From a virus, in IMG/VR virus record IMGVR_UViG_3300009152_003190, positions 1 through 21,920 of that record: a DNA stretch of 21,920 nucleotides, one strand, 5' to 3'. Position 1 is the stretch's first letter. Each line of letters begins with the position of its first letter. The notes under the pieces were generated by a model that saw only the letters and a program-made list of their open reading frames with translations, made no database searches and was not told the DNA's origin. Position numbers and translations under genes: made by a program. Positions 1,331-14,866 of this stretch are shown here, piece after piece.

Positions 1331-1623
1331 TTTGGTCGTCTGTATTTGTTTACTGTATTATCAATCTTAACTTGCTTAGCTGAACGAGATACTGTTCTAT
1401 CAGCAAGCTCACTGTTAGGATGAGCTTCTGCTACTTTTGAGAGGACTTCTTTAAATCCTGAGTCAGTTCTGATCGATCCAGTTCCTCCGACAATTCCAGG
1501 AAACGAATCAAAGTAACGCTCAAGACTAGGATTAGAGGTGAGAAAGCTATCGTAATCAGCAATACGTAAAGTGAATTCGACAAGTTCATCTGTGTCTTTA
1601 TCTTTAAAAGTATAAATGGGCAT
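1327..1623 (-). CDS. Short conserved phage protein with FmdB-like N-terminus
   Basis: A 98-residue protein starting MPIYTFKDKDTDELVEF. The opening resembles the FmdB-type zinc ribbon (MPIYEYRC..CG), but the protein has no cysteine, so it cannot bind zinc that way. The rest is charged and probably flexible, ending in a basic tail (NKYRRPN). Similar short proteins are common in marine T4-like phages; their role is unknown. It starts at an ATG overlapping the carbamoyltransferase stop by one base (TAATG) and ends overlapping the exonuclease start by four, so it lies in a tight operon. Confidence 0.75.
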   Translation of the reverse strand: MPIYTFKDKDTDELVEFTLRIADYDSFLTSNPSLERYFDSFPGIVGGTGSIRTDSGFKEVLSKVAEAHPNSELADRTVSRSAKQVKIDNTVNKYRRPN

Positions 1624-3155
1624 TAGTTTTTAGAGAATAATTTGTTACCTACGACTAGATAGTCAATACTAGTTTCAAAAAACAGTTCCTGTGCGTTGTG
1701 TATATATCCAGCAATTGGCTTACCACCTAGATTGAGACTTGTGTTAAGAAGTACTGGACACTCAGTTAGTTGATGGAATCTTTCAAGTAGCTTTCTGAAT
1801 GAGCCTGAATTCTTCTCCACAGTCTGTACTCTACACGTACCGTCCACATGAGTGATTGCAGGGAATCTATTTGTCTTTGCCTTACCAACATACAACATAT
1901 ATGGATTATCAAAAGGAAGGTCAAAAAACTTCTCCGTATGTTCAGCTAGTATAGAGGCCCCAAAGGGTCTATACTGCTCTCTTCGCTTCACTCTATTAAT
2001 AATAGCCTTACCGTTTTTAACTTCTGGGTTCATTAGGATTGATCTGTTACCTAGTGCTCTAGGACCAATCTCTCCATTACCTTGGTACCACGCAACAATC
2101 TTTCCATCAGCTAATAAGTTTGCAACATTGTCAATTAACTCATCAGAAACATCAACGTCTTCAGGAGCTTGATCTGATTGAGCAAATGGAAAGTTATTAA
2201 ACTCTAATCGAGGTAGATTATTTTTGATACGTAACCACTCAACAGCTCCAATACTAATACCATCATCAGCAGAATGTGGAAGGATAACAAGATTAGGAAA
2301 GTACTCTCTCAGCTGTGTATTCCATATCACATTCTGAGCAACCCCACCAGAATAAAATATAACATCATCTGGCTTACAATTTACTTGAAAGAACTTTAGT
2401 AGAATATCACCAGCCTTAGTATGAATAGTTTTAATCCAATCTAGACAGGTGCACTTACCAACAAGATCGTCACCTTTATGTTCGTGCCACTTTTTGATAT
2501 CAAATAATTCTTTTATGTCATAGATTGTAAGCCCATCGAGCTTATCATAGAACTCTTTGTCAAAGTTACCGTATGATTGAAATCCCATTACCTTACCAGC
2601 AATATCAACCTCTACTCCGTACTTAACTCCAACAAACTTACCAAACTCATTCATTAAGAGACCAATAGAGCCGTGATCAAATATCTTACCGACTTCAATC
2701 AGCTTATCACCCTTGAATACTGACCAAGGCACTTCATTATCACCTATACCGTCAATGATAATAGAGACATCGGGTTTCATGTACGGAACATAGCTAAGTG
2801 AGTGAGCGTAGTGGTGATCAATTGAGTAGACAGGACAGCTAAGAGGAAAGCCAGTGCAAAGACTGTTCAATGATGCTTGGACCCCAACATTTGTTAATTG
2901 ATTACTGTTTCTATCAAAAGGATCATTAATATACTTGATGCTGGTATTCTCTTCTAGAGATATACAAACCTCATCAATGTCTCTATAGTCAAGACCCCAT
3001 GCATCCATGACGTCCTGCCTCCATTGGAACTCACCCAGAGACTCGTGATGCTTAACTTGATATTTGCGTTCAGTTTTTAGATACCTGAGCGACTTTCCAT
3101 CATAAAGGCACAAATTGCTGTCGTGAGCATTTATCCTGATTCCAAGTAAAATCAT
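1623..3155 (-). CDS. Carbamoyltransferase, NodU/TobZ family
   Basis: A 510-residue enzyme that in known relatives transfers the carbamoyl group from carbamoyl phosphate, through an adenylate, to a sugar or antibiotic hydroxyl. The N-terminal kinase-like (YrdC-type partner) fold shows GIRINAHDSNLCLYDG near the start, the metal-binding IDHHYAHSLS at about 112-121 and IDGIGD at 135-139. A SGGVAQN loop lies at 269-275. The C-terminal carbamoyltransferase domain carries GNGEIGPRALGNRSI at about 359-373. Length is slightly below the usual 550-600. T4-like cyanophages carry similar genes. With the two glycosyltransferases, the PMM-like enzyme and FkbM methyltransferase, it points to modification of a sugar. 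The substrate is unknown. Confidence 0.9.
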   Translation of the reverse strand: MILLGIRINAHDSNLCLYDGKSLRYLKTERKYQVKHHESLGEFQWRQDVMDAWGLDYRDIDEVCISLEENTSIKYINDPFDRNSNQLTNVGVQASLNSLCTGFPLSCPVYSIDHHYAHSLSYVPYMKPDVSIIIDGIGDNEVPWSVFKGDKLIEVGKIFDHGSIGLLMNEFGKFVGVKYGVEVDIAGKVMGFQSYGNFDKEFYDKLDGLTIYDIKELFDIKKWHEHKGDDLVGKCTCLDWIKTIHTKAGDILLKFFQVNCKPDDVIFYSGGVAQNVIWNTQLREYFPNLVILPHSADDGISIGAVEWLRIKNNLPRLEFNNFPFAQSDQAPEDVDVSDELIDNVANLLADGKIVAWYQGNGEIGPRALGNRSILMNPEVKNGKAIINRVKRREQYRPFGASILAEHTEKFFDLPFDNPYMLYVGKAKTNRFPAITHVDGTCRVQTVEKNSGSFRKLLERFHQLTECPVLLNTSLNLGGKPIAGYIHNAQELFFETSIDYLVVGNKLFSKN

Positions 3156-3981: not shown

Positions 3982-4838
3982 TAAAATTCCCCAGCATGTT
4001 CCATCATTGTTTTAAGTTTGTGCTCTTGAAAATACCCAATAATATTTACCTTTTTGGGTGTCGCAAGCTGCGTTTGATATTCATTCCAGATCTTACTTGT
4101 AATGTTTTCAGGTATCAATGATAAATTAATTAGCTTATTGTTACGTTCAAGTCCCGCTTTAAGTTCAGGAACATTTGATGAAAGCTGTTCCAGACTCATA
4201 CCCAACCATGTAGATAACTTATTCTTGTTTACAGGTCTTTGTCTGATACCATCTACAAAGCAATTATCACTAGACAAAGCATTAGGTATACCATCACCAC
4301 TATCTCCTTTGATAACCAACTCCTTGAGATACTGCTTAGGATCCTCAACCTGTACATTACGCTTGCGAATGGGATCAAACTGAATCACTCTCTCGTTATG
4401 TAGCTGGATAAAATCCTTATCAGCAGACAGGATCAATACATCCTCAGTAGAGTTAAGACATATAGTTGCAATGATATCATCTGCTTCACAATGATCTACT
4501 TTAACTACGATGTAAGGAAGATTTTGTTTGATCTCTTCTCTGATCTTATTGAGAGTTTCAAACACGAGTGGCCAATCGATATCACTTTGCTCACGAACCT
4601 TCTTCCGTCCAGCTTTGTAATATGGAAAAAGATCTTTCCTCCAATAGTTTTTATCATCGCAAGCAATGACTATATCTCCATACACTCTACCAAACTTCTG
4701 CTTGTATAGACGAAGTGAGTTAAGGATCATATGTCTAACTAATCCTTCCTCAAATACTAGCTCAGTATGGTTACCAATCTGCATCATCAGGTTAGAGATG
4801 CAGACTTGGTTAAAGTCAATAATAATAATTTTAATCAC
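3981..4838 (-). CDS. rnh: T4-type RNase H, 5'-3' flap nuclease
   Basis: A 285-residue FEN-1-family nuclease, near the 305 residues of T4 Rnh, that removes RNA primers and a few bases of DNA from lagging-strand fragments. The active-site acids are visible: D8 (IDFNQV), D61/D62 (IACDDKNYWRKDLFPYYKAGRK, with the Arg/Lys/Tyr that contact the phosphate), the EADD block at 118-121, D140 and D142 (SADKDFIQL) and the helix-3-turn motif with further acids GDSGDGIPN near 178-186. The start is a GTG at 4838 overlapping the previous gene's stop by four bases (GTGA). It would act with the primase at 17668-18705. Confidence 0.92.
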   Translation of the reverse strand: MIKIIIIDFNQVCISNLMMQIGNHTELVFEEGLVRHMILNSLRLYKQKFGRVYGDIVIACDDKNYWRKDLFPYYKAGRKKVREQSDIDWPLVFETLNKIREEIKQNLPYIVVKVDHCEADDIIATICLNSTEDVLILSADKDFIQLHNERVIQFDPIRKRNVQVEDPKQYLKELVIKGDSGDGIPNALSSDNCFVDGIRQRPVNKNKLSTWLGMSLEQLSSNVPELKAGLERNNKLINLSLIPENITSKIWNEYQTQLATPKKVNIIGYFQEHKLKTMMEHAGEF

Positions 4839-5782
4839 CCATTATAATCTATACGTTTCAAATCTTTGAGCATTACCTTCATTAGGTTGATCCATTGATT
4901 CTTTCTGTTATGCCATCCATAGAATGCATCAACGTACGCTTTTTGAGCAACTAATGTCTTTTGCACATCAGGCTCATTATACACTTCAATAGCATTGGAA
5001 GTCAACTCTACAAGAGCTTTCATGTGATCTCGTTCATTATCTTGCCACTGATACATCCATGTCCAGTTAGCTGCAGTCTCGTACAGAGCACCATAGTTAG
5101 GATGGAGACAGAACACACCTGCAGACATCGCTTCAATCAGGCTAATACAAGAAGTCTCTAGCCACGTGTTTGGATACGCATAGAAATGAGCTTTTTGAAG
5201 AGCTGTCCGAATTTCGCTGTTGGGGACAGAACCATGATAATTAATATTAGGATGATCTTCACAGAACTTAAATAAGTCTTTGTAAGGCTCATCTCGTTGT
5301 TCCCAGCCGTAGATCTTAAAGCTAGAGTATACATCCAGCTCTACGTTAGGGTAGCGCTTAGATAGAGCATCAAAAGCGGAAACCAGGATATTGAGCCCAC
5401 GATGAGGAGTAGTATGATATACAAATCGGATTTTGTCAGTAGGTTTTTGTACATGTTCAATTGGTTCAATAGCATTCTGAAGAACTACACACTTGTACCA
5501 TGGAAGACCATAGTGTTTCTGATACGCTTGCATTTGCCAGTTAGAGACAAAGACAAGTTTATCAAATCGATTCCAACCACCACCCTTGAGATGTTCTGAT
5601 TCGGGATCACCTGGTAAGTCATGCAACCAGTATATTTTAATTTTGGAGTCATTCACATCTCTTACTCGAGAAGGAATGATTTGAAAGTGCTGCATTAGAT
5701 CTGCAGGTATATGACTATGGAGTGCTTCGAGCATTAGCTCTGTGCCACCCTTAGCGTTTTGTGACAACTCATTGACTTCCAT
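4835..5782 (-). CDS. Glycosyltransferase, GT4-like (GT-B fold)
   Basis: A 315-residue protein with the C-terminal half of a group 1 (GT4) glycosyltransferase. It starts with a glycine-rich acceptor-side loop (NAKGGTELMLEAL), then IYWLHDLPGDPE, a VFVSNWQ strand, and RFVYHTTPHRGLNILVSAFDAL where the nucleotide-sugar domain begins. Near residue 215 comes the EX7E signature, LETSCISLIEAMSAG, followed by the usual strand and helix. It uses a nucleotide-activated sugar; donor and acceptor are unknown. It sits between rnh and a small conserved gene with four- and one-base overlaps. It is not closely related to the Agt-like enzyme at 9758. Confidence 0.87.
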   Translation of the reverse strand: MEVNELSQNAKGGTELMLEALHSHIPADLMQHFQIIPSRVRDVNDSKIKIYWLHDLPGDPESEHLKGGGWNRFDKLVFVSNWQMQAYQKHYGLPWYKCVVLQNAIEPIEHVQKPTDKIRFVYHTTPHRGLNILVSAFDALSKRYPNVELDVYSSFKIYGWEQRDEPYKDLFKFCEDHPNINYHGSVPNSEIRTALQKAHFYAYPNTWLETSCISLIEAMSAGVFCLHPNYGALYETAANWTWMYQWQDNERDHMKALVELTSNAIEVYNEPDVQKTLVAQKAYVDAFYGWHNRKNQWINLMKVMLKDLKRIDYNG

Positions 5783-5961: not shown

Positions 5962-6702
5962 TTACTTTCCATCCTTTTGTAGATAATTCCAAGTGTCCTT
6001 CCAACTCTTCACTTTCACTGTTGTAGCCTTGCTTTGTTTCATCTGTATATAGTTCTCCTTTAGAGCCATGCCCAAAGGAAAATCATTACCACCAAACTCC
6101 ATCTGATCACCAAAGAAGTGTACATGAACAAACGGTTCAACAAAGTATTTTGCAATCTGTCCTTTGTCTTTACCTGGTTCCATAATATCAACACCAGTCT
6201 CACCAGCAACTTGAGCTACAGCAACATCACCAAACTTCTCATTGAACTCTTTAGCAATCCTCTTGCGTTCACCAGTACGTTTATCATATTCAACATACTT
6301 ATCACGCTGCTCTCTATCAGCAGCTCTACCAACAATACTAAAGTTAACAAGTCCAATACGGTTTTCAATATGTCTTCCAGCCTTTCCAGTGAAAAGACTT
6401 TTAAACAGCTGTTCATTCAACCATTGGATCTGAGGATCTTTCAATGTCCATTTACTAGAATACTTCAATGATCCTTTAGTATATATGGCGTTTCCAGCAC
6501 AGGAAAATACTGCGTTTGCCATGTCCAGGACATCGTTTCCCAGCTGTTCTTGGGTTTTAGGATAGTCACTGCCAGTTGCAAAGTAAACCTCCTTCTCACC
6601 TGTTTTAATCCAGTTCTTGAACCACTTACGGAATTGTGGATCAATGACCTCTCGACTGGGAGTTAGGGTGCCATCAACGTCGAATATGTAAACTTTTTTC
6701 AT
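5962..6702 (-). CDS. HAD-family phosphatase/mutase, eukaryotic-type phosphomannomutase-like
   Basis: A 246-residue HAD-superfamily protein of about the size of eukaryotic phosphomannomutase (PMM), which converts mannose-6-phosphate to mannose-1-phosphate for GDP-mannose. Motif 1 is FDVDGTLTPSR with the nucleophile D8 and acid D10. The cap domain shows the PMM-type NFSIVGRAADREQR (about 120-133) and GETGVDIMEPGKDKG (167-181). The final motif is HFFGDQMEFGGNDFPL with D199 and GGND. The agreement with PMM is strong over its whole length, though sugar specificity cannot be read off. Mannose activation would supply the nearby glycosyltransferases. It starts at the left side of a 39-base divergent gap. 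Confidence 0.85.
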   Translation of the reverse strand: MKKVYIFDVDGTLTPSREVIDPQFRKWFKNWIKTGEKEVYFATGSDYPKTQEQLGNDVLDMANAVFSCAGNAIYTKGSLKYSSKWTLKDPQIQWLNEQLFKSLFTGKAGRHIENRIGLVNFSIVGRAADREQRDKYVEYDKRTGERKRIAKEFNEKFGDVAVAQVAGETGVDIMEPGKDKGQIAKYFVEPFVHVHFFGDQMEFGGNDFPLGMALKENYIQMKQSKATTVKVKSWKDTWNYLQKDGK

Positions 6703-6986: not shown

Positions 6987-7769
6987 ATGGATCCATTAAC
7001 ACTATTTGCTTTAGCAAACGGTGCGGTTCAAGCAGTAAAAAAGGGATGTCAGTTATATAAAGAGATTAGTGGTGCAGTTAGTGATGTGAAGGGGGTCTTA
7101 CAAGATTTAGATGACCAATTTCATTCCAGATACAAAGACCGTGCACCAACAATAGCTGAGAAAAATCAGTATATTGAAGAAAAAAATCGCGTAATCGAGT
7201 TGAGTAAAAAACAACCTGAGGACGTGTATGCCCAGATTGGTGAAGAACTTGGTGCGTACTTTGAAAACATGGCTACTTGCATGGCAATCTTTGAGGAGGA
7301 AGAAAGACAGGATGATGAAGTTTACACTGGTACAACAAGTATAGGTAAACGTGCTCTACAAAGAGTCCTCATGAAAACCAAGCTGAAAGCAATGAAAGCT
7401 GAGCTACGTGAGATTATGGTTTACCAATGTCCTCCTGAGCTAGGTGATCTCTATACTCAGGTCGAAAAGATGATGGCTAAAATGGAAGAGCAGCAATCTA
7501 TTGCTATTGTTGCTAAAATGAAGCGAGACAGAATTGATGCAGCAGCAAGAAGAAAAAGAATTCAAAGGATCAGATGTGAAGGGTGGAAGTACGGCATAAC
7601 CGTTATTTTTGCATTGTACTTGTCATGGTTAGTATGGGCTGTTGTTGAGGTACGCAAGGAAGTGCATCCTGAACTTGGAGTCTGTCTAATACCAAAAGGA
7701 CAGTGGCCATACGAATACTACAACAGACTCAAGTGGGTTGAATGTAACCCTCGTCAGATCAGTCCTTGA
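6987..7769 (+). CDS. Probable membrane-anchored virion-type protein of T4-like phages
   Basis: A 260-residue protein on the plus strand. The N-terminus (MDPLTLFALANGAVQAVKKGCQLYKE) and the following charged helical region resemble a family I recall as virion structural proteins of marine T4-like phages. Residues of about 60-200 are likely coiled coil (many Lys, Glu, Met). A single membrane segment, YGITVIFALYLSWLVWAVV, follows a basic RRKRIQRIR run at about residue 190-200. A short C-terminal part with two cysteines (GVCLIP, VECNP) would then lie on the other side of the membrane. The Shine-Dalgarno (AGGAG) is unusually far, about 15 bases. The 3' end overlaps the convergent FkbM gene by 16 bases. 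Confidence 0.65.
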   Translation: MDPLTLFALANGAVQAVKKGCQLYKEISGAVSDVKGVLQDLDDQFHSRYKDRAPTIAEKNQYIEEKNRVIELSKKQPEDVYAQIGEELGAYFENMATCMAIFEEEERQDDEVYTGTTSIGKRALQRVLMKTKLKAMKAELREIMVYQCPPELGDLYTQVEKMMAKMEEQQSIAIVAKMKRDRIDAAARRKRIQRIRCEGWKYGITVIFALYLSWLVWAVVEVRKEVHPELGVCLIPKGQWPYEYYNRLKWVECNPRQISP

Positions 7770-8611
7770 TCATCGAAAAAGTTAAATATATTTGATCCTA
7801 CTTTAGCTTCTTGAAGACCTGTTGGCTGTTCCTGATCTTTGTGCACACAAATAATATTACCTTCATATCTCTTATCCATATTTTTCTTATCAATTACAGA
7901 TCCTGGCTCTTCCCAAATGTCCTGTTTTTGTTGATTATGATTGTTTGGATTGTGCTTGGTGTATATGTGCCAGTATGCAGCGTATCCCATTGCCTGAACT
8001 TTCTCAAGCAACTCATCGTTACCTTCCTTATTGTTAAACTCAATGTACAACATTGGTTTATATTTGTCTATTAACTTCTCAGCACCATTCAATACATCTA
8101 CCTCTAATCCTTCAACATCTAGTTTGATAAGATGAAATGGTATGCCATGCTTGAGTAATGAATCCAATGTAATGCATGATGTATGAAGACCTCTAAAGAC
8201 GTGGTCTTTAAGTTTAAACTCACCGTAGTTTACTTTCTCACCATGAAATGGATCAATATTAAGGATCCTCACTTCCTTTTCTTCGGAGCCACAAGCAGCT
8301 CTCATCGGAATTACATTGAAGCATCCGTTGATCATCAGGTTAGTATTAAGGAATTGTGAGATGTATAGTTGAGGCTCAATAGCAATCACAGTACCCTTAG
8401 TACATTTCTTAGAGAAATAGACTGAATGGGTACCAATATTAGCACCAACATCAATAACGTTTGAATAATCCTTGAGGAAGAGATCAAAAAGATCCATTTC
8501 TTGCTGTGCCCATTCACCATAGTAGTGAAGACAAGCTCCTATTGGATCATCATTACGAAAGAATGTAAATCTGCCGTACTTGGAGTCTGCTATTGCAATG
8601 TGATTTTCCAT
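7754..8611 (-). CDS. FkbM-family methyltransferase
   Basis: A 285-residue SAM-dependent methyltransferase of the FkbM type, which methylates sugar hydroxyls or similar small groups. The SAM site reads NVIDVGANIGTHSVYFS (51-67) and the acid of motif II is in IAIEPQ (77-81). The family signature IKLDVEGLEVDVLNGAEKLI lies near 160-180, followed by LYIEFNN. The C-terminus is ordinary. ATG 8611 has GAG about five bases upstream. It lies 12 bases after the tRNA 3' end and ends convergently with the plus-strand gene. Together with carbamoyl- and glycosyltransferases it suggests decoration of a glycan, of virion or host. Confidence 0.88.
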   Translation of the reverse strand: MENHIAIADSKYGRFTFFRNDDPIGACLHYYGEWAQQEMDLFDLFLKDYSNVIDVGANIGTHSVYFSKKCTKGTVIAIEPQLYISQFLNTNLMINGCFNVIPMRAACGSEEKEVRILNIDPFHGEKVNYGEFKLKDHVFRGLHTSCITLDSLLKHGIPFHLIKLDVEGLEVDVLNGAEKLIDKYKPMLYIEFNNKEGNDELLEKVQAMGYAAYWHIYTKHNPNNHNQQKQDIWEEPGSVIDKKNMDKRYEGNIICVHKDQEQPTGLQEAKVGSNIFNFFDDQGLI

Positions 8612-8623
8612 AATATCTCAAAT

Positions 8624-8698
8624 TGGTTGCAGGGGAAGGAATCGAACCTCCGACCTCGGGATTATGAGTCCCGCGCTCTACCGCTGCGCTACCCTGCG
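8624..8698 (-). tRNA. tRNA-Met (CAT), possibly initiator-like
   Basis: A 75-base tRNA with the 3' CCA encoded. The acceptor stem is CGCAGGG with CCCTGCA, the anticodon loop is CTCATAA (anticodon CAT), the T loop is TTCGATT and the T stem GGAGG with CCTTC. Six of seven acceptor pairs form. The first position is C1 facing A72, a mismatch typical of bacterial initiator tRNA-fMet. However, the anticodon stem is CGGGA/TCCCG, so an A-T pair rather than the third G-C pair sits next to the loop, and the 11:24 pair is C-G, which are elongator-like. Tentatively Met; fMet or Ile2 (lysidine-modified CAT) are alternatives. T8-A9-G10 also form the TAG stop of the upstream gene. Confidence 0.93.
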
Positions 8699-9096
8699 TC
8701 TGTTAATTGTAAATGCTTCCTATGTATCTTACACATAACCCATACATTATAATACCGTTCTGGAAATAAGAGAACATCTAATTCAAATTGATACTTTGCT
8801 TCGTAGTATGAACACTCACCCTTGTTCTTACAGAATCTGAGAATCTGTCTTTGAAACTTCTCTTTTCCCAGTAACTCTATATCAGCTAAAAGTAAATCGT
8901 TGGAACCATAGTACTCTTTCCAATCCGATTCCACTTTAAACTTTTTCTTCTTGCCTTTAACTTGTCTTTGCTTAGAAGCGTAAAATAATTTCTTACCAAT
9001 GTATTGTTTATTGGTATCAGTATTAGTTATTTTGTAGACAAATCCATAACATCTATCTGGAATATTGGTCACTTCAACATTATCATGTGTCCACAT
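8689..9096 (-). CDS. GIY-YIG nuclease-like protein, possible homing endonuclease
   Basis: A 135-residue protein from ATG 9096, which follows the zinc-ribbon stop by four bases; the longer frame to 9144 would overlap that gene by 43 bases. The core is GFVYKITNTDTNKQYIGKK, matching GIY ... YIG, followed by Lys-rich residues, then ESDWKEYYGSNDLL and LGKEKFQRQIL. The FELDVL helix after YYEAK can carry the metal-binding Glu. This layout resembles the small GIY-YIG nucleases common in T4-like phages, some of which are homing endonucleases. No extra DNA-binding domain is seen. The TAG stop lies inside the downstream tRNA, at T8-A9-G10. Confidence 0.78.
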   Translation of the reverse strand: MWTHDNVEVTNIPDRCYGFVYKITNTDTNKQYIGKKLFYASKQRQVKGKKKKFKVESDWKEYYGSNDLLLADIELLGKEKFQRQILRFCKNKGECSYYEAKYQFELDVLLFPERYYNVWVMCKIHRKHLQLTDAG

Positions 9097-9100
9097 TAAA

Positions 9101-9262
9101 TTAATTATCTTCGTCGTAGAAATCTTCATCCATACTATCTTCACCCATCATAGATCCACAATAGGGACAAAATGAAATGGGTTCATCAATATTATATCCT
9201 TCTACTTCAAACTCAGAGTCACAAGTCCTACATGTTTGAATATTTTTATCGTCACCGATCAT
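9101..9262 (-). CDS. Small zinc-ribbon protein
   Basis: A 53-residue acidic protein with two cysteine pairs: QTCRTCDSEF near residues 10-18 and FCPYCGSM near 33-40. The spacing and the CPYCG knuckle are those of a zinc ribbon. The remainder is Asp/Glu-rich (MDEDFYDEDN at the end). The ATG at 9262 has GGAG seven bases upstream, and its start overlaps the stop of the adhesin-E-like gene by four bases (ATGA). Short zinc-ribbon proteins are frequent in T4-like marine phages; a role in transcription is possible but not shown. Confidence 0.8.
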   Translation of the reverse strand: MIGDDKNIQTCRTCDSEFEVEGYNIDEPISFCPYCGSMMGEDSMDEDFYDEDN

Positions 9263-9757: not shown

Positions 9758-10753
9758 TTACCTGATACTGATTAGATTGTCTTTAAAAATCTTCCAGCAT
9801 TGCTCCCAAGTCCATATTGATGAAGCTTTCTTGACCTTCTTACGATCAAGTAACAAGCAGTTCATTATAGCCTTGTCTAAATTATCATCCATACATCCAG
9901 TGAGATTATCTATAACATCTAAAGGACCATCAACTGGATATGCTGCAACTGGAGTACCAAGACTCATAGCTTCAATCATCACAATACCAAACGTATCGGA
10001 CTTGCTTGGAAAGCAAAACACATCAGCACGTGCGTAGCTGTTTGCTAGCTCCGAACCTTGCTGGTATCCTAAGAACTTAACTTTAGGATATCTCTCTTCC
10101 AGCTTCTTTCTGTAAGGACCATCACCAACAATTTCAATATTGTAGGTGTCTTGTAGCTTGCACAAGGCATCAAGATTCTTTTCTTTAGATACGCGACCGA
10201 CATATAATACAGTTGGAGGATTGCTATAATCATACCGCTTAGTAGGCTTCAACATATCACGGTCAACCCCTCTAGTCCACGTAACCATTGGACCACTGAA
10301 TCCTTTACCCTCTAAGATAGTTTTCATTGATCTGGTGTTGACTAGTAGCTTACCAGAGTGCTTATGGAACCAGCGAAGATATCCCCATGTGATACTCATA
10401 GGAATATTGTAAATTGCTTTTAGAAATTCAGGGAATTTAGTATGATAAGAAGTATTGTAACAATAGCCCCGTTTGTCAAGATAAAGTCTAGCGAACAAAC
10501 CAACAGGACCTTCTGTGGAGATGTGTATATAATCCGGAGATATCTCTTCAATCTTCTTGCCAATGTTCCACGGAAGGGCAAGTTTAACTTCAGGGTAGCC
10601 TGGGCAATTAAAATGTAAGAACTGAAGGGGAGTAAGGTATACAATAGAATAATCATCCAAAAGCGCATGTTTCTCAATGCTTTGGAAAGTAACCACGACT
10701 CCATTAATTTGATCTGGAACATTATCGGTTACTATGAGGATTTTCTTTGGCAT
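9758..10753 (-). CDS. agt: Glycosyltransferase GT4, Agt-like glycolipid synthase
   Basis: A 331-residue GT-B enzyme of family GT4. The N-terminal domain has VTDNVPDQINGVVVTF (8-23), YPEVKLALP, HISTEGPVGLFARL (77-90) and TSYHTKFPEF (101-110). After a RGVDRDMLKP link (161-170) comes the donor domain: VLYVGRVSKEKN (182-193), IVGDGPYRKKLE and the EX7E-type site SDTFGIVMIEA (252-262, with D253 and E261), then AAYPVDGPLDVI. This is the pattern I recall of bacterial Agt enzymes, which glycosylate diacylglycerol during phosphate starvation in SAR11 and roseobacters and usually lie beside plcP. Here it follows a PlcP-like gene, with AAGG about ten bases before its ATG. GT4 family is sure; the Agt function and substrate are inferred. 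Confidence 0.82.
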   Translation of the reverse strand: MPKKILIVTDNVPDQINGVVVTFQSIEKHALLDDYSIVYLTPLQFLHFNCPGYPEVKLALPWNIGKKIEEISPDYIHISTEGPVGLFARLYLDKRGYCYNTSYHTKFPEFLKAIYNIPMSITWGYLRWFHKHSGKLLVNTRSMKTILEGKGFSGPMVTWTRGVDRDMLKPTKRYDYSNPPTVLYVGRVSKEKNLDALCKLQDTYNIEIVGDGPYRKKLEERYPKVKFLGYQQGSELANSYARADVFCFPSKSDTFGIVMIEAMSLGTPVAAYPVDGPLDVIDNLTGCMDDNLDKAIMNCLLLDRKKVKKASSIWTWEQCWKIFKDNLISIR

Positions 10754-10828
10754 GAGGCTTCTACCTTAAAACTTTTAAACTTTAATGAATAGGTCATTGA
10801 AGATTTTGCTTGTTCACATGAATGTTGA

Positions 10829-11659
10829 TCAGGAAACTCCAACGTTACTTTTCCTGGTTGATCGTTTGGATTGTTTAGGTGGACTGCTATCAATATCATC
10901 ATCCACATTGTCGCTCTCCTGTGTCCAAGTTATTATCTCCCATCTACCATCGTGGTGTTCAACTAAAGCAGTACAAGATTCAACCCAGTCACCATCATTC
11001 ATATAGACTACACCATTAATTTGTTTAATCTCTGCTTTGTGTATGTGTCCACATATGACCCCATCGTATCCTTTTTTCTTACAATATCCAGCTAAGTTCT
11101 TTTCAAACTGAAACATGAAATCTAAGGCTCGTTTAACCCTTTGCTTAAGATAAAGGCTAAGAGACCAATAACCAAAACCAAGTCGATGACGGAACCAATT
11201 GAATCGAGAATTGAGAGTAAGAACAAAATCATATGCTTTGTCTCCTAAGAAGGAAAGCCAAGGTGCTAGTCTAGTGATACCATCAAATAGATCACCATGC
11301 GTGACGAGATAATGTTTCCCATCTGCACCAATATGTTCGCACTGATTTGTAATTGTTAGCATTCCAAACCCTAACCCGTAATGAAGGTAAGGTCTAAGGA
11401 ATTCATCGTGATTGCCTAGTACGTATACCACTTCCGTACCACGCTTAGAGTGACCAAGGACACGTCTCACTACGTTTGTATGAGACTGCTTCCAACGCCA
11501 TTTGTTCTGTTTAATTTTCCATGCATCAATTATATCACCTACAAGATACAACTTCTCACATGAATTATGCTTTAGAAAATTATTCAGATGCTCAGCCTTG
11601 CAATCCTTAGTTCCAAGGTGAACATCTGATATAAAGATGCTACGGTAGTTTTTTTCCAT
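10829..11659 (-). CDS. plcP: PlcP-like metallophosphoesterase (phospholipase C type)
   Basis: A 276-residue calcineurin-type metallophosphoesterase. The metal-binding residues are in place: D12 and H14 (SDVHLG), D42 (GDIIDAW), N83 and H84 (GNHDEF), H121 (THGDLFD), H205 and H207 (GHIHKAE). Beyond these general motifs, it carries the family blocks QSHTNVVRRVL, NWFRHRLGFGYWSLSLYLK (154-172), YDGVICGHIH and NDGDWVESCTALVEHHDGR, which match my memory of bacterial PlcP, often mislabelled UDP-2,3-diacylglucosamine hydrolase. PlcP cuts phospholipids to diacylglycerol under phosphate limitation. The C-terminus adds a Ser/Lys-rich tail. No good Shine-Dalgarno precedes ATG 11659. LpxH is the main alternative; the agt-like neighbour favours PlcP. 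Confidence 0.85.
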   Translation of the reverse strand: MEKNYRSIFISDVHLGTKDCKAEHLNNFLKHNSCEKLYLVGDIIDAWKIKQNKWRWKQSHTNVVRRVLGHSKRGTEVVYVLGNHDEFLRPYLHYGLGFGMLTITNQCEHIGADGKHYLVTHGDLFDGITRLAPWLSFLGDKAYDFVLTLNSRFNWFRHRLGFGYWSLSLYLKQRVKRALDFMFQFEKNLAGYCKKKGYDGVICGHIHKAEIKQINGVVYMNDGDWVESCTALVEHHDGRWEIITWTQESDNVDDDIDSSPPKQSKRSTRKSNVGVS

Positions 11660-11737
11660 TGAAGGTCTGGTTACGGATCCAGCGTCACCCTATCGTCGTG
11701 ACCGATTTGAAGATTGAATTAATTTTAATATGTATGT

Positions 11738-11764
11738 ACACAGTTTTGAAAACCCTGTGTTTTT
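11738..11764. other. Hairpin with T-run between plcP and nrdB
   Basis: A six-base stem (ACACAG at 11738-11743, CTGTGT at 11755-11760) with an inner TTTT/AAAA is followed on the plus strand by a T-run. Read as plus, it resembles a factor-independent terminator, but no nearby gene is transcribed that way. On the minus strand, where it lies 43 bases after the nrdB stop, the T-run is missing. It might stop antisense transcription or protect the nrdB mRNA end. The rest of 11660-11802 holds no clear promoter. Confidence 0.35.
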
Positions 11765-11802
11765 AATCAAGTCTTCATCAAATGGACTTCAAATTATCAT
11801 AC

Positions 11803-14091: not shown

Positions 14092-14331
14092 TTATTCCTT
14101 TGGCTCTACACAGTATCCACCTTTGAACTTGTACACATTAGAGTCAACACGAATTTGTTCATATATTTCATTATCTACACACTTAAATGGATCTCTGTAA
14201 TTAATAAAAAAAGAGTATACACCAAACCCAATGCCTGCTAGTATCATAATGACTGGTATGTATTTTAAGTATTTAACGATCCCAGGTAGGTTCTCTAGCA
14301 GCTGGGGTAAGTATTTAAGAAGGTCTTTCAT
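14092..14331 (-). CDS. Small one-pass membrane protein
   Basis: A 79-residue protein with a single membrane segment at about 25-43 (IPVIMILAGIGFGVYSFFI), an amphipathic N-terminus (MKDLLKYLPQLLENLPGI) and a polar C-terminal part with two cysteines (PFKCVDNE, GGYCVEPK) that could form a disulfide in the periplasm. It overlaps the SOD-like gene by 17 bases. Function unknown. Confidence 0.6.
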   Translation of the reverse strand: MKDLLKYLPQLLENLPGIVKYLKYIPVIMILAGIGFGVYSFFINYRDPFKCVDNEIYEQIRVDSNVYKFKGGYCVEPKE

Positions 14332-14866
14332 TGTTTATTCTATCACTAACTATCTTCCAATTTATGATTTTCCAAGTATTGTCTAAATACTTTTCTTTAT
14401 CTGCTTGGTAGTCTAATGCCCAAGCATGCTCCCACCAGTCAATTAGTAGAGCTATATTGGGAACAACTTGATGATTAACTATGGTTTTAATATCACCTGA
14501 TGTGTCCATATAAACCCATCCAGATCCTTGAATCTTCATAGCGATTCTTTTCAACTCTTCTTTGAACTTAATAAATGATCCATACTTCTGATTAATAATC
14601 AATTCACTTGATCCCTCAGGGGCATTATTATCTGAAGGTGGTTGAAGTTGAGGAAAGTATAGGTTATGAAGAAATGCTCCAGCTCTGTTAAACTTAGGAT
14701 CCCCCTCACCTTTGTTGAATCGATTAACATATCCAGATGCTAAAGTACCGTAGTGATAATCTAGAGTGTCCTTACTCTTTACAGGAGACAGATCCGTTCT
14801 TTTGTATGGAAGAGGCTCTAAAACCAAATTATCTTTAGATTCAATAAAGTGAGAGAAGTTTTTCAT
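14315..14866 (-). CDS. Fe/Mn superoxide dismutase-like protein
   Basis: A 183-residue protein that reads as an Fe/Mn superoxide dismutase across its length: LVLEPLPYKRTDLSPVKSKDT, H38 in DYHYG, H67 in AGAFLHNLYF, GSGWVYMD, and D143 with H147 in LIDWWEHAWALDY. These are the four metal ligands, and the Tyr34 equivalent (Y46) is kept. However, the usual KHH before it is TLA, so the gateway His is missing. A Gly at the position of the FeSOD Gln and a Gln in NHQVV suggest a Mn-type site. It would remove superoxide in the cytoplasm (no signal seen); activity is unproven. The start overlaps the previous gene's stop (ATGA). Confidence 0.85.
   Translation of the reverse strand: MKNFSHFIESKDNLVLEPLPYKRTDLSPVKSKDTLDYHYGTLASGYVNRFNKGEGDPKFNRAGAFLHNLYFPQLQPPSDNNAPEGSSELIINQKYGSFIKFKEELKRIAMKIQGSGWVYMDTSGDIKTIVNHQVVPNIALLIDWWEHAWALDYQADKEKYLDNTWKIINWKIVSDRINNERPS

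Follow-up and report, generated by a model that had tools for sequence, protein, structure and literature searches.

Phage genes predicted to convert host phospholipids into phosphorus-free glycolipids

Bacteria that face phosphate starvation can remodel their membranes through the PlcP-Agt pathway, in which PlcP converts phospholipid to diacylglycerol and Agt, a GT4 glycosyltransferase, converts the diacylglycerol to a glycolipid; the pathway is described in SAR11 HTCC7211, Pseudomonas aeruginosa (PA3219/PA3218) and Methylosinus OB3b (PMC4796936, PMC8528852, PMC9239053). Phage auxiliary metabolic genes (AMGs) for phosphate uptake are also well known, and T4-like cyanophages carry phosphate AMGs, such as pstS, under the control of host PhoBR (PMC10976474). 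Here, we examined a 21,920-base viral contig (IMG/VR record IMGVR_UViG_3300009152_003190, positions 1 to 21,920; the whole stretch is referred to as the window) that carries the T4-like genes NrdA, NrdB, T4 RNase H, primase and endolysin. An earlier note, made from the sequence alone, proposed that two adjacent genes in the window are a PlcP-Agt pair that would allow the phage to change host membrane lipids to phosphorus-free ones and free phosphate for its own DNA. Our analysis confirms the observation and largely supports this interpretation, though the benefit to phage DNA is inference, and the framing of the pair as a new system in one phage was too narrow. The features relevant to this analysis, all on the minus strand, are as follows.

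9758-10753 (minus): agt-like GT4 glycosyltransferase, 331 aa, predicted to convert diacylglycerol to glycolipid
10829-11659 (minus): plcP-like metallophosphoesterase, 276 aa, a predicted phospholipase C converting phospholipid to diacylglycerol
11660-11802 (minus): nrdB-plcP intergenic region, with no recognizable Pho box
11665-11706 (minus): conserved two-hairpin RNA element in the leader just before the plcP start codon
11803-12798 (minus): nrdB, the upstream neighbor (Pfam Ribonuc_red_sm, 1.5e-77)

The two genes of the pair lie in the same orientation, 75 nt apart, and plcP and agt match the Pfam families Metallophos (1.5e-10) and Glycos_transf_1 (6.7e-23), respectively. The closest relatives show dN/dS of 0.05-0.13 against the window for both genes, so both are maintained proteins under purifying selection rather than chance ORFs. 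Elsewhere in the window are a Fe/Mn superoxide dismutase (14315-14866, minus; Pfam 2e-21), a SegE-type GIY-YIG endonuclease and a tRNA-Met next to the lipid genes (8689-9144 and 8624-8698, minus), which represent a possible route of gene movement, and a NodU-type carbamoyltransferase, a second GT4, a phosphomannomutase-like HAD protein and an FkbM methyltransferase (1623-3155, 4835-5782, 5962-6702 and 7754-8611), which form a possible surface-sugar modification set separate from the lipid pair.

Databases call proteins of this metallophosphoesterase family UDP-2,3-diacylglucosamine hydrolases, and LpxH structures are the best PDB fold match, which raises the possibility that the enzyme is LpxH-like and that the pair works on lipid A or LPS. 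The sequence evidence makes this very unlikely. The window protein scored 35.4 bits against an LpxH equivalog cut-off of 190, and 49 against 134 for a second, whereas in the bacterial genomes searched true LpxH scored 224-336 bits and the PlcP-type paralogues 37-53. A 90-row maximum-likelihood tree separates LpxH from the phage and cellular PlcP rows with 100/100 support, with the P. aeruginosa PA3219-type protein and the Sinorhizobium meliloti-type PlcP on the phage side; these two loci were assigned from their neighbors (cyaB and azoR3; an acyl-homoserine-lactone synthase and a LuxR-type regulator) and from the presumed locus order. Identity of the window protein is 55.5% to the PA3219-type protein and 46.9% to the S. 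meliloti protein. At 12 of 12 positions that separate PlcP from LpxH the window has the PlcP residue and at none the LpxH-type residue, and the two-metal ligands of the calcineurin-like fold (D12, H14, D42, N83, H121, H205, H207) are intact. An AlphaFold model (pLDDT 77) gave an LpxH-like core but is too weak for substrate arguments. The tree contains one large phage lineage, the base of which is weakly supported, and a second one with Pelagibacter phage Mosig, suggesting that phages probably acquired plcP at least twice.

The GT4 lies in the Agt cluster, where phage GT4s form one clade away from most of the other GT4s of three bacterial genomes, although this rests on a quick tree with long outgroup branches. 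It is 38.9% identical to the PA3218-type Agt1. In accordance with mutagenesis of the SAR11 enzyme GTcp (PMC8231724), the window protein retains each residue whose mutation abolished activity, and all Agt residues tested are present (G18, G82, G85, H104, R161, R187, K192, D253, T254, F255, G256, E261, W316). The GTcp motifs GRVAXEKN and FPSXTDTFG appear as GRVSKEKN and FPSKSDTFG, and the catalytic dyad His104-Asp256 as H104 and D253. The GTcp residues His104, Arg163 and Trp320, predicted to contact diacylglycerol, correspond to H104, R161 and W316, which are invariant in 113 phage GTs. In 46 of these 113, however, D253 is replaced by Glu, although D256E cost over 90% of GTcp activity (PMC8231724); the window has Asp.

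The pair is widespread and modular in uncultivated phages. Scans of IMG/VR met 591 PlcP and 454 GT relatives, of which we retained the best 80 of each. Of the 80 GT4 loci, 77 have plcP directly upstream and the other three are cut by contig ends, a linkage in independent contigs that rejects chance pairing. The plcP-agt order also occurs in 41 of 85 cellular and plasmid PlcP loci. Of the 80 PlcP loci, 39 have the GT4, 25 have instead an unrelated GT2-fold protein of about 240 aa in the same slot, 11 have neither and 5 are truncated. A separate scan for the GT2 gave 22 loci, each with plcP upstream. The GT2 (e.g., L023:6907-7620, L063:6907-7626 and L299-L320, where L numbers denote our fetched loci) keeps DxD and ED motifs, its model (pLDDT 86) matches GT-A enzymes such as TarP, and it was not found at any cellular locus in our set. 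The exchange of two unrelated glycosyltransferases behind the same PlcP argues that the product of PlcP is what they glycosylate. One phage contig (L068) also has a DesA-type fatty acid desaturase (7710-8420) near plcP and GT2, a further possible membrane-lipid gene. It is conceivable, though we consider it unlikely, that PlcP alone is the functional unit, releasing phosphorus or producing diacylglycerol, with the GT protecting the cell from diacylglycerol or a host GT performing the second step. About one in seven of the best PlcP loci has no GT in the slot, one such 146-kb phage has no GT4 above the E-value limit anywhere on its contig, so the second step is not always phage-encoded, and Mosig has no GT beside its plcP. 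Against PlcP acting alone, a GT of one of the two families follows plcP in 64 of 80 loci, and GT4 and GT2 occur with plcP in all untruncated cases.

The genomic context of relatives links the cassette to phosphate. Of 25 large contigs, 14 carry the T4 major capsid gene, making bacterial contamination unlikely, 13 carry PstS over the curated cut-off and 6 a phosphate-selective porin O/P (OprO/P), in arrangements such as pstS-oprP-plcP-agt; phage phosphate islands with pstS, the porin, plcP and a glycosyltransferase in a row occur in L059, L061, L028, L041 and L069. A sequence deposited as a human fecal phage, MT836169, has TyrS-like and Ppk-like neighbors by eye, is probably bacterial and was not used as phage evidence. 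With the published E. coli Pho-box consensus, fixed beforehand, 19 of 109 phage plcP upstream regions and 47 of 84 cellular ones reach p<0.05. The phage form, YTGTAAY-N4-YTGTAAY, occurs in 47 of the 109, mostly at -39 to -59, against 66 of 6,643 background windows (1%). This motif was read from the top sites in the same regions, and its enrichment at plcP is partly circular, but as an independent check it also stands before 16 of 25 phage pstS genes and 0 of 30 nrdB genes; we acknowledge that the sequences are related and that the counts are not independent events. The window itself has no pstS, no porin and no recognizable Pho box (best match 7 of 14 to the E. coli consensus). When plcP follows nrdB, as in the window, a box is found in 1 of 34 cases, and otherwise in 51 of 105. 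The window's copy is therefore probably not PhoB-controlled and is more likely expressed with the nucleotide-synthesis genes, while in related phages the cassette is probably switched on by host PhoB. The pair might instead change membrane or surface lipids for another reason, such as superinfection exclusion, altered charge or permeability, or membrane preparation for virion assembly or lysis, with phosphorus saving incidental. This appears unlikely given the linkage to pstS and OprO/P, the Pho boxes at plcP and pstS in relatives, and a chemistry that is that of the phosphate-starvation pathway.

The two-hairpin element directly before the plcP start codon is 42 nt long (model hit 61.7 bits, 5e-21) and is conserved in about 40 relatives although the DNA just upstream has diverged. 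On 17 distinct rows, 5 of 10 pairs show compensatory changes and 98% of cells pair, far above shuffled and slid controls. It has no Rfam match and occurs once per genome in 18 of 25 records. Two pattern scans found 124 stretches (e.g., L011:5953-5994, L404 and L442), about half with plcP on the stretch; copies lie before plcP or next to pstS, porin or GT genes, and most of the intact copies elsewhere lie between regA (Pfam-confirmed in two) and an Hsp20-like ORF (by eye). It is therefore a general phage element and not part of the lipid cassette as such.

Taken together, we propose, with a probability of roughly 0.8, that the two genes form a phage-borne lipid-remodeling cassette. PlcP, as a two-metal phosphodiesterase, would remove the phosphorylated head group from host phospholipids and leave diacylglycerol, to which the GT4 would add a sugar from a UDP-sugar, giving a phosphorus-free glycolipid that keeps the membrane intact. 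The activities, substrates, sugar and benefit to the phage are inferred from sequence in the absence of biochemical data. The net effect would be to release phosphorus, or spare it from lipid synthesis, during infection. By published numbers for Phaeobacter MED193 (PMC4796936), halving lipid phosphorus would supply about one 160-kb genome, so the gain may be small in tiny cells and larger in bigger ones. A broader reading, that a widespread, PhoB-triggered cassette of PlcP plus either glycosyltransferase, often with PstS and an OprO/P porin, rebuilds the host membrane as phosphorus-free glycolipid during infection, and that the phage GT2 is an undescribed kind of diacylglycerol glycosyltransferase, is about as likely as not.

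The enzymes themselves are known, but their phage-borne, modular form appears to be new. Full-text searches, which did not cover most subscription journals, found no paper describing plcP or agt in phages, and a catalogue of phage phosphorus genes does not mention plcP or lipids in its main text (PMC10987575). Among named phage genomes we found no record with both genes, and a megablast search against phage genomes found no relative of the window. Ocean AMG surveys may hide such genes, as PlcP is annotated as LpxH and one survey removes contigs with glycosyltransferases as LPS islands (PMC11360552). If the function is confirmed, lipidomes of infected cells in phosphorus-poor waters would carry a viral signal, and whether phages rebalance membrane chemistry during lysis becomes testable.

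In comparison with described systems, the window PlcP shares the calcineurin-like fold and metal ligands with LpxH but falls in a different clade. The PlcP of Pelagibacter phage Mosig EXVC030M (MT647606) is 51% identical, is annotated as an LpxH-like hydrolase and is divergent from a putative phosphate ABC transporter gene. Relative to the cellular PlcP-Agt pathway, the phage pair has the same two families, gene order and catalytic residues, with Pho boxes in relatives, but it is encoded by lytic-type T4-like phages, its GT4s form a separate clade on a long stem, the GT4 can be replaced by a GT2, and the window copy follows nrdB without a Pho box. As with the phosphate AMGs of T4-like cyanophages, in relatives the phage gene is likely controlled by host PhoB and has pstS beside it; it differs in that its predicted action is on membrane phospholipid rather than on phosphate uptake, and in its hosts, which probably include Burkholderiales, judged only from ~30%-identical porins.
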